From Dehalococcoidia bacterium (GTDB lineage Bacteria; Chloroflexota; Dehalococcoidia; Tepidiformales; Tepidiformaceae), in NCBI GenBank assembly GCA_020850615.1, contig JADZEI010000085.1, forward strand, positions 1-64,000: a stretch of DNA of 64,000 bases, written 5' to 3'. The translations under genes were made by a program, and so were the position numbers. This document shows, piece by piece, positions 45,029 to 48,186 of this stretch (position 1 is the stretch's first letter; each line of letters opens with the position of its first letter). Below the pieces are notes generated by a model. It did not search any database and was not told the DNA's origin. It was given only the letters and a program-made list of their open reading frames with translations.

Positions 45029-45853
45029 TCAGCGGTGGCTGGATGCGCCGGGGAGGGTGGCGTGCTCGCGCCGTTCGAACATGTAGCCCATGCCGCGGAC
45101 GTTATGGATGTATTCGCGGCCGGGCGCCACATCGTGGATCTTGCGGCGGATACGAAGGATGTAGACCTTTACCTGGGCCGCGGCCGACTCCTCCGGCGCC
45201 TCGATCCCGGCGGCGGCGAGGATGCCCGCCGGGGAGATGACGCGGCCCGGGTTCGCCGCGAGCGTTGCGAAGACGCGGAACTCCATGCCCGTGAGCGGGA
45301 TGAGCTGGTCGCCGAACCAGGCTTCGCGGCGCTCTTCGAGGATGCGGAAGCCGGCCGTTTCGAGGCCGCGGGGGTAGGACGCGAAGCCCTGGCCGGAGCG
45401 GCGGGCGATCGCGGCGAGCACGGCGTTGAGCACGGCCGGGTCCTCGCTCTCCCGGAGGAAGGCGTCGGCGCCCGCGTTGAGGGCGCGGGCCAGGTCCGCC
45501 GGGTCGTCGCCGCTGACGAGGAGGAGGATGCAGGCGTCGCTGGCCTGGCGGAGCTCGTGCACCGCCTCGGTCAGGCGGTCGCCAGGCAGCTCGGCGACCA
45601 GGACGATCAGCGCGGGCGCGAGCGAGGTCACGAGCTGGACGGCGTTCTCGTCGAAGGGGCGGTCGGTGGCGGCGATGCGCTGGTTGAGCATCGCGCCGAT
45701 GAGCCCGGCCGGGTTGTAGGGATGGAGGTGGAAGACGAGCGCGACGAATTCCGGCCGGCCGGTGAGCGGCGGGTCAGACCCCTGTTCGGGGTCGCGGCTG
45801 TCTGCGGGTTCTGGTAGCCGTGAAGCGTCCATGCCTGCGCACCCTGGGGCCAT
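45029..45853 (-). CDS. OmpR-like winged-helix regulator with degenerate receiver (copy 2)
   Basis: This 274-residue paralogue of the regulator at 23 kb has a receiver-like domain (about 60-170): ALIVLVAELPG lacks the phospho-acceptor Asp, and GADAFLRES lacks the conserved Lys. The Trans_reg_C winged helix follows (about 185-262) with LTGMEFRVFATLA, QVKVYILRIRRKI and NVRGMGYMFERR. It starts at ATG 45853 with AAAAGG upstream, or at ATG 45832. It is divergent from a gene paralogous to the other regulator's partner, supporting a two-gene module. It lies 185 bp behind nifJ and may or may not control it. Confidence 0.72.
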   Translation of the reverse strand: MAPGCAGMDASRLPEPADSRDPEQGSDPPLTGRPEFVALVFHLHPYNPAGLIGAMLNQRIAATDRPFDENAVQLVTSLAPALIVLVAELPGDRLTEAVHELRQASDACILLLVSGDDPADLARALNAGADAFLRESEDPAVLNAVLAAIARRSGQGFASYPRGLETAGFRILEERREAWFGDQLIPLTGMEFRVFATLAANPGRVISPAGILAAAGIEAPEESAAAQVKVYILRIRRKIHDVAPGREYIHNVRGMGYMFERREHATLPGASSHR

Positions 45854-45999: not shown

Positions 46000-46473
46000 A
46001 TGGACGAGGCGCCCGGCCACGGCCGGATGGCACCGCAGCACGGGGTCGTGCCCGCGGATGTGGTGCTGCGCCCGGTCCGGAGGCTGGAATCGGCGTACCG
46101 GGAAACGGCGGACCTGGTGGAGCGCCTGGCCGCGGGCCTGGACTCGCTCGCCGCGGATCTTGCGGCCGGCGCGGGCGTTCGCACGGCGGCCGTGGCGGCG
46201 GTGCCGGTGCCGGTGGAAGCGGACCGGATCGCGAAGCTGCGGAAGGACGTGGCCGGCTTGCCCGGCGTGACCGAAGTGGTCGTCGCGGGTTCGAGCGATG
46301 GCGTGACGCGGCTGCTGGTCCAACTTGGTGGCGACGACCGTGCGGAGCCGGTGGAGCCGAGGGTGGTGTGCATCGAATGTGGCCGGGTGGTCGTGGACGG
46401 GGACCTGCCCGCGTCGCACGGGCTCTGCCCGGAGTGTGTGGACAGGTTCGTACGCGGGGCCGGCCGGGATTAG
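46000..46473 (+). CDS. Helical/beta-alpha-beta module protein with C-terminal zinc ribbon (copy 2)
   Basis: This 157-residue protein has an N-terminal helix (VRRLESAYRETADLVERL, then GLDSLAADLAAGAG) and a middle module (IAKLRKDVAGLPGVTEVVVAG, then RLLVQL) that align by eye with the protein at 23808-24392. It gains a C-terminal zinc ribbon (CIECG...GLCPECVDRF) and lacks the long N-terminal coiled coil of copy 1. GGAGG lies 5 nt before the ATG. It is divergent from regulator copy 2 with 146 bp between starts. Its stop codon falls inside the CIRCE box. Confidence 0.65.
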   Translation: MDEAPGHGRMAPQHGVVPADVVLRPVRRLESAYRETADLVERLAAGLDSLAADLAAGAGVRTAAVAAVPVPVEADRIAKLRKDVAGLPGVTEVVVAGSSDGVTRLLVQLGGDDRAEPVEPRVVCIECGRVVVDGDLPASHGLCPECVDRFVRGAGRD

Positions 46474-46496
46474 CACTCTTGACACCTGAGTGCTAA
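46470..46496. promoter_or_regulatory. CIRCE operator (HrcA-binding site)
   Basis: TTAGCACTC (46470-46478), 9 bp, GAGTGCTAA (46488-46496): a perfect match to the CIRCE consensus bound by the heat-shock repressor HrcA. The 9-bp spacer itself contains TTGACA (46479-46484), probably the -35 box, so HrcA binding would block the polymerase. It precedes the FmdB zinc-ribbon gene by 47 bp. Confidence 0.92.
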
Positions 46497-46543
46497 TCCG
46501 CGCACCATGCAGATCAGTCCGATGCCCCTTCGGGAGACCACCG

Positions 46544-46843
46544 ATGCCGATCTACGAATACAGCTGCCCGGCGTGCGACGCCACCTACGAGCTGCAGCAG
46601 AGCTTCTCCGCGGAGACGACACACACGTGCACGGAGTGCGGAAAAGGGACCGCGAAGCGGGTACTCCACGCGCCACGCGTGGTGTTCAAGGGCTCGGGCT
46701 GGTACGCGACCGATAGCCGCAAGAGCAGCAGCGCCGTCGAGGACACTGCGCCGGCGGAGAGCACCCCGGCCAAGCCGAGCGAGACCACCAGCACCAGCAG
46801 CAGCACCCCAGGCGCGGATGCATCGGTAAGTGCAGCACAATAA
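46544..46843 (+). CDS. FmdB-family zinc-ribbon protein
   Basis: This 99-residue protein has the FmdB-type N-terminus MPIYEYSCPACDATYELQQSF with a second Cys pair in HTCTECGKGTAKRVL, forming one zinc ribbon, and a SGWYATD segment. A Ser/Thr/Pro-rich disordered tail of about 45 residues follows. GGGAG lies upstream of the ATG. Function is unknown in the family. The perfect CIRCE box just upstream implies heat-shock control through HrcA, pointing to a proteostasis link. Confidence 0.88.
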   Translation: MPIYEYSCPACDATYELQQSFSAETTHTCTECGKGTAKRVLHAPRVVFKGSGWYATDSRKSSSAVEDTAPAESTPAKPSETTSTSSSTPGADASVSAAQ

Positions 46844-46892: not shown

Positions 46893-47501
46893 ATGGCTGC
46901 GGGTGGTCGATTCAACGGGGTCGGGGATGGGACGCCGGACCGCATCCGGCGCGCGGCGCGGGAGCTGTTCGCCGAACAGGGCTATGAGCGGACCACGATC
47001 CGGGAAATCGCCGCGCGAGCCGGCATAACGGACCCCGCGGTCCTCTACTACTTCAAGTCCAAGCGTGGCCTGCTGACGGCGATCCTCGAGGAGCCGACGC
47101 TCGAGCCGCTTGCGCCCATGACGTCGTGGGACCCGGGGCGCGTCGCCGACCATTTCGTCACCGTGCTCGATGACTACATCGACCGGGCTGACCTCTTCCG
47201 TGTCGCGATGACGCGGGCCCTGGCCGACGATGACGACACGAACGCCTTCAACCGGCGACTCACGCGGGACTTCAACAAGGTGTTCGCGCCGGTCATCCAG
47301 GAGTGGTGCGGCACCGACACTCCGACGATCATGACGGCCGCGACGGCCGCCTTCCGGGTCCTGCTTTCCGACATCGTGGTCGGCGGCGAGCCGATCGACG
47401 GTCCGGGCCAGCGTGACTGCGTGCGCGAGCGGTTTAGACGGTGCATTCTGCTTGTATTGTCCCCTCCACCGGCGGAGGGAGCTCGATCGCTGACCGCCTG
47501 A
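46893..47501 (+). CDS. TetR family transcriptional regulator 1
   Basis: This 202-residue protein has a standard N-terminal TetR HTH: RIRRAARELFAEQGYERTTIREIAARAGITDPAVLYYFKSK (given for recognition in parts: helix 1 about 17-30, recognition helix about 47-56). A ligand-binding all-helical C-terminus follows with no specific signature. It appears to be transcribed from a leaderless promoter whose -10 is palindromic. A second TetR gene follows 55 bp later. Neither gene's effector is visible. Confidence 0.9.
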   Translation: MAAGGRFNGVGDGTPDRIRRAARELFAEQGYERTTIREIAARAGITDPAVLYYFKSKRGLLTAILEEPTLEPLAPMTSWDPGRVADHFVTVLDDYIDRADLFRVAMTRALADDDDTNAFNRRLTRDFNKVFAPVIQEWCGTDTPTIMTAATAAFRVLLSDIVVGGEPIDGPGQRDCVRERFRRCILLVLSPPPAEGARSLTA

Positions 47502-47556: not shown

Positions 47557-48186
47557 ATGCCTGTCCAGGAACCTGCGCGTCATGCCCGGAGCGGAGACAC
47601 CAGGACCGTCATCCTCGATGCCTCACTCGAGCTGTTTGGCCGGGACGGGTACGAGGCGACGACCGTGCGCCGCATCGCTGACCGCTGCGGGATCACGGAC
47701 GCGGCGCTCTACTACTACTTCGATTCCAAGCAGGCGATCCTCGACGCGCTCTTCGTGGAGCGCTGGTCCGCGACGACGAGCGACTACCCGCTCCGCATCC
47801 CGCAAGGGCCGGTGACTACGGAGACGCTCGTGGCGGTGGCGGAGATCGCGCTCGAACGGTTCGTGACCCACGACGCGATCACGCGGCTCCTGCTTTCGCG
47901 CGCACTGGCCGACGACGTGCGGGCGCGCGAACTGCGCAAGCAGCGGCTCGCCACCTGGCGCAACACCATCCGCGACCTGTTCGACGAGCGGTTCCGGCCG
48001 GAGGACGTGGACCTGGTGGTCGATGCCTTCATGTGGGTGATCATCGGCTTCGGGATCACGTCGCAGGCGTCGTTCGGGCGGAAGCTCGCCGACGCGGTGC
48101 AGGACCCGGAGTTCCGCGAGCACTACCGCGCGGTCATCCGGCGGGTCGCGCCGGTCGACGAGCTGGCGGGGTGCCGGCGCGCGTGA
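47557..48186 (+). CDS. TetR family transcriptional regulator 2
   Basis: This 209-residue TetR protein has its HTH within [21 protein letters not shown] and [14 protein letters not shown], with helix 3 nearly identical in pattern to the upstream TetR. The C-terminal half includes [23 protein letters not shown]. The two may have arisen by tandem duplication, though their C-termini differ. The dtd GTG overlaps its stop by 4 bp, so it is cotranscribed with dtd and possibly proS. Confidence 0.9.

Follow-up and report, generated by a model that had tools for sequence, protein, structure and literature searches.

A predicted HrcA operator precedes a Ruc-type zinc-ribbon gene in a Dehalococcoidia bacterium and its relatives

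Introduction

Why should a CIRCE operator stand in front of a small gene that is annotated merely as 'FmdB family zinc ribbon'? This question is raised by a 64,000-nucleotide stretch of DNA from a Dehalococcoidia bacterium (contig JADZEI010000085.1, positions 1 to 64,000), which was analysed as a whole and is called the window below. A first, sequence-only reading of the window had regarded the gene product as uncharacterised and of unknown function, and its regulation as a new entry to the HrcA regulon. Neither statement is supported, as the family has a studied member. Rv0991c of Mycobacterium tuberculosis, named Ruc, combines a zinc ribbon with a disordered tail in a small protein, and it was found with DnaK (PMC7448276). 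It acts as a holdase solely when oxidised, is heat-induced and is directly repressed by HrcA (PMC7448276, PMC8557902). The accompanying guess of a role in proteostasis appears to have been right, judging from the homology of the protein to this redox-regulated chaperone (PMC7448276).

HrcA-controlled Ruc is therefore already known in mycobacteria, and the surprise of the locus is largely removed. What is new is the breadth of the CIRCE-ruc link, its conservation in another phylum and the design of the promoter. A literature search found no paper on CIRCE-ruc conservation in Chloroflexota or on this promoter design; the search did not extend to subscription literature and regulon databases, where fmdB may already be listed as an HrcA target. 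Taken together, the box is very probably an operator through which HrcA represses a promoter of sigma-70 type, and the gene behind it encodes a Ruc-type redox-regulated chaperone in this reading.

Results

The operator and its companions in the genome

A pattern search of the window identified TTAGCACTC-TTGACACCT-GAGTGCTAA as an exact CIRCE (Table 1), the full operator letters being TTAGCACTCTTGACACCTGAGTGCTAA. The inverted repeat TTAGCACTC-N9-GAGTGCTAA is thus present with 0 mismatches, as had been stated at the outset. It is the sole CIRCE match within the window even if 3 mismatches are allowed, and none was obtained in 100 dinucleotide shuffles. Coordinates, Pfam and NCBIfam likewise confirmed the earlier description of an FmdB-type protein of 99 residues whose ATG (46544) follows the operator at a spacing of 47 nt.

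Table 1. Features of the CIRCE-ruc locus (window coordinates)
Feature	Position	Strand	Basis
CIRCE operator, perfect inverted repeat, predicted HrcA binding site	46470..46496	.	exact match, shuffles, family conservation
-35 element TTGACA in operator loop	46479..46484	+	sequence; family alignment
Putative -10 element CACCAT, 18 nt after -35, family pattern NANNAT	46503..46508	+	family alignment
ruc homologue (FmdB/Zn_ribbon_8), 99 aa: ribbon C8, C11, C29, C32, VVFKGSGWY block, Ser/Thr/Ala/Pro-rich disordered tail	46544..46843	+	Pfam, NCBIfam, alignment, AlphaFold
TetR-family regulator, directly 3' of ruc, possibly same transcript	46893..47501	+	Pfam TetR_N; family relatives
Second TetR-family regulator	47557..48186	+	Pfam; family relatives

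The genome (4.17 Mb, 95 contigs, 95% complete) is from the same family as Tepidiforma: in one family relative, G032, the locus L012 matches Tepidiforma flava NZ_CP115149.1 without a difference over 3273 bases. One copy of hrcA is present, whereas its absence had been named beforehand as a refutation of HrcA control. A genome-wide search for further boxes, also proposed by the sequence-only reading, returned five CIRCE sites with up to 3 mismatches, and the genes behind them were assigned by Pfam and by reading of the translations. Three boxes are perfect and belong to hrcA, a groEL (C38) and the ruc gene of the window, and a box with one mismatch is found at groES, which is followed by a second groEL. 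A box with two mismatches, TTAGCACTCGGTTTGCTACACTGCTAA (L005:1501-1530; C87:27635-27661 in this genome, G000), stops 2 bases short of the dnaJ GTG. A reversed control pattern was matched once in this genome but in none of 60 relatives, and the five-site list is therefore nearly free of chance matches. The dnaJ site taken alone is not safe; 27 near-identical bases, matched by sequence alone, form a two-mismatch site in the family relatives G007, G027 and G030, among others. The TACACT within this dnaJ box might act as a -10 if dnaJ is transcribed without a leader.

Conservation of the operator at ruc

A ruc-type gene was present in 57 of the 61 genomes searched, including 34 of the 37 family genomes, this one among them. 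Absence of the box in close relatives that keep the gene had been put forward as a second refutation. The search instead recovered a CIRCE before ruc in 33 of these 34 family genomes at up to 3 mismatches (32 at up to 2; 19 perfect), located 64-105 bp ahead of the start codon, while the backward control pattern was never encountered upstream of ruc in the same 34 genomes. The exception is G012, whose ruc has no recognisable CIRCE. In other families of the class, approximately 5 of 19 sampled loci carry a CIRCE at the gene and about 14 do not have a recognisable one. These loci and G012 indicate that the CIRCE-ruc link is not universal.

A strict composite search, for a CIRCE core followed after about 20-80 bp by the start of the gene, misses mismatched boxes and longer distances; it was successful in 21 of the 195 class genomes examined, against 0 for its backward control. 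Scanning of GTDB (84,980 species) gave at least 116 matching stretches, at least 104 of them with an FmdB/Ruc-type frame right after the CIRCE, and the exact Cx2C-x17-Cx2C spacing was seen in at least 102 of these 104 frames. Among the matches listed, the record titles are mostly those of Actinomycetota and Chloroflexota, with single titles from Riflebacteria/Ozemobacter, Acidobacteria/Vicinamibacteria, Myxococcales, Ignavibacteriales/Bacteroidetes, Proteobacteria and others, the phylum being given by the MAG label alone. One such record, L072 (PBTV01000007.1, titled Rubrivirga sp.), encodes a Ruc-type protein near-identical to those of the actinobacterial MAGs L045, L058 and L107 and is for this reason probably mislabelled or contaminated. 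Oddly titled MAGs of this kind were left out as evidence for extra phyla.

A promoter in the operator loop

The TTGACA that had been noticed within the spacer is confirmed (Table 1). Alignment of the family sites on the operator placed TTGAC in the loop at 26 of 33 sites and TTGACA at 21 of 33. Bases further 3' are enriched as well (operator position 35 is A in 25/33 sites, position 38 is A in 23/33 and position 39 is T in 25/33), and these conserved bases are consistent with a putative -10 of the form NANNAT. The -10 at ruc is weak, and a promoter scan with a stricter sigma-70 rule called none at this gene, so that the layout is drawn from the family alignment. The arrangement with TTGACA in the loop is also present at groEL. 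As the -35 lies within the CIRCE loop, HrcA would cover it and should block the promoter directly. In genus g13 (loci L033-L036 and L153-L155), CIRCE half-sites were observed at ruc, with one arm often reading TTAGCAGTC. The box of this genus is degenerate and its loop does not contain TTGACA, and consequently its ruc promoter must be built differently.

The protein is a Ruc homologue

The 99-aa protein matched Pfam Zn_ribbon_8 (48.7 bits) and the NCBIfam FmdB family TIGR02605 (60.3 bits), both above the cut-off. The cysteines of its Cx2C-x17-Cx2C ribbon occupy positions identical to those of Ruc, and these are the positions that were mutated in that protein (PMC7448276). In a small set of sequences, the homologue from Mycobacteroides chelonae aligned over 62 aa (39% identity, E 1e-15), and its sequence is in close agreement with the residues of M. 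tuberculosis Ruc that can be read from the primers of the published study. An AlphaFold model is confident for the ribbon (residues 1-45) and disordered in the tail (pLDDT about 45 from residue 60), the C-terminal tail comprising 41 aa rich in Ser, Ala, Thr and Pro. A PDB sequence search with the protein gave low-scoring zinc-finger matches alone. Based on the cysteines, the M. chelonae alignment and the modelled ribbon and tail, the predicted identity as a Ruc homologue is well supported, and redox chaperone activity would be expected by analogy. At the C-terminus (46835-46840 in the window, and homologues), 26 of 103 Ruc-type proteins behind CIRCE end in AAx (mostly AAS) versus about 1.6 expected from shuffled tails; as the sequences are related, this is only suggestive of a conserved C-terminal signal, e.g. 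a degron.

A search for Hsp33 (PF01430) gave no match in this 95% complete genome, while 8 of 14 control genomes were positive. This absence agrees with a published survey, in which Ruc homologues were detected in 22 of 22 Chloroflexi examined and Hsp33 homologues were rare or absent there (PMC7448276).

The box could be an HrcA operator and the protein nevertheless a nucleic-acid- or protein-binding zinc ribbon (an 'FmdB putative regulator') that is merely heat-induced. FmdB-type ribbons are widespread and, to our knowledge, only one member has been tested for chaperone activity. The FmdB name and the zinc-ribbon fold are non-specific, and the activity is known for a single distant homologue, of which the M. 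chelonae relative resembles the window protein at the above 39% over the ribbon. We nevertheless consider this explanation unlikely, since the protein retains every feature to which activity is tied in Ruc (the four cysteines, the conserved block and the disordered tail), the regulon is the same as that of Ruc and Hsp33 was not found in the genome.

Genes downstream and upstream of the operator

In most family relatives, as in the window, ruc is followed by TetR genes on its own strand, and a ruc-tetR-tetR transcript under HrcA is therefore possible. The operator might even serve mainly the TetR pair, with heat shock leading to a metabolic or efflux response and ruc being the leader gene of the operon. 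The conserved position of the pair and the lack of a visible plus-strand terminator after ruc would fit such a function. However, the box lies directly ahead of ruc, and in the wider set it accompanies ruc where no TetR match was found, which makes a primary role in TetR control improbable.

On the upstream side, the sequence-only reading had described an overlap of the operator with the stop of a preceding ribbon-containing gene. The overlap itself is real, as the TAG (46471-46473) of a 157-aa ORF (46000-46473) lies inside the left arm, but neither Pfam nor NCBIfam gave a match for the ORF. It also has no counterpart among the ruc loci of relatives, and the overlap thus looks local and meaningless. 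A role for the upstream gene in the CIRCE-ruc link was rejected for the same lack of counterparts. The ORF contains two CxxC motifs (CIECG and CPECV) and is divergent from a response-regulator-like gene on the minus strand that starts near 45850. The sequence 5' of CIRCE-ruc is not common to relatives, and often a tRNA-Ser gene is located there. Despite the overlapping stop codon, the idea that the repeat arose by chance, or that it terminates or attenuates transcription of the upstream gene, can practically be dismissed, because the exact match extends over 18 bases and is absent from shuffles, no T run follows the repeat, and it is kept in relatives in which the ORF is replaced by unrelated sequence that often contains a tRNA gene.

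Discussion

The favoured explanation, an HrcA operator at the promoter of a Ruc-type chaperone gene, suggests the following course of events, for which we infer HrcA binding to the box and heat induction of ruc. Under normal conditions, HrcA would occupy the CIRCE, whose loop contains the -35 hexamer, and thereby exclude RNA polymerase. On heating, or under a burden of misfolded protein, active HrcA would be lost and ruc induced together with groES-groEL, groEL, hrcA and probably dnaJ. The Ruc-type protein would hold one zinc by its four cysteines; upon oxidation, zinc would be lost and disulfides formed, and the disordered tail would hold unfolded clients for DnaK/DnaJ. In this bacterium, it may fill the place of the missing Hsp33.

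More broadly, HrcA control of ruc may form a core branch of the CIRCE regulon that is ancient and common to Actinomycetota and Chloroflexota and scattered elsewhere, with Ruc as a standard HrcA-controlled chaperone beside GroE and DnaJ that replaces Hsp33 where it is lacking; we regard this proposal as evenly balanced between true and false. The conservation of the sequences carries a regulatory link from experiments in M. tuberculosis to another phylum and supports the view of Ruc as a general stress chaperone rather than a mycobacterial peculiarity. It also provides a name and a testable function for the annotated zinc-ribbon gene, and the harmless thermophiles of the genus Tepidiforma are possible test systems for Ruc function.

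Comparison with known systems

The M. tuberculosis protein shares with the window protein the C8, C11, C29, C32 ribbon, a VVFKG block and a disordered hydrophilic tail. At both genes an HrcA site, predicted in the present case, overlaps the promoter, and both regulons include groES-groEL, groEL and hrcA-dnaJ, so that the list of M. tuberculosis HrcA targets (groEL2, groES-groEL1, rv0991c-rv0990c and hrcA-dnaJ2; PMC8557902) is nearly the same as the one in this genome. The two systems differ in the overlapping promoter, which is read by SigH in M. tuberculosis, where HrcA and SigH sites overlap at ruc (PMC7448276), whereas a sigma-70-type -35 lies in the CIRCE loop here. The downstream gene is rv0990c in M. 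tuberculosis and tetR in the window, and in M. tuberculosis the Pup-proteasome presumably removes HrcA. Hsp33 resembles the Ruc-type protein in the proposed role as a zinc-cysteine redox-switched holdase, but the two are not related in sequence. With the classical HrcA/CIRCE regulon (groE, hrcA-dnaK), the genome shares the operator, the repressor and the companion genes, and it differs by ruc as an extra target outside the usual groE/dnaK set.
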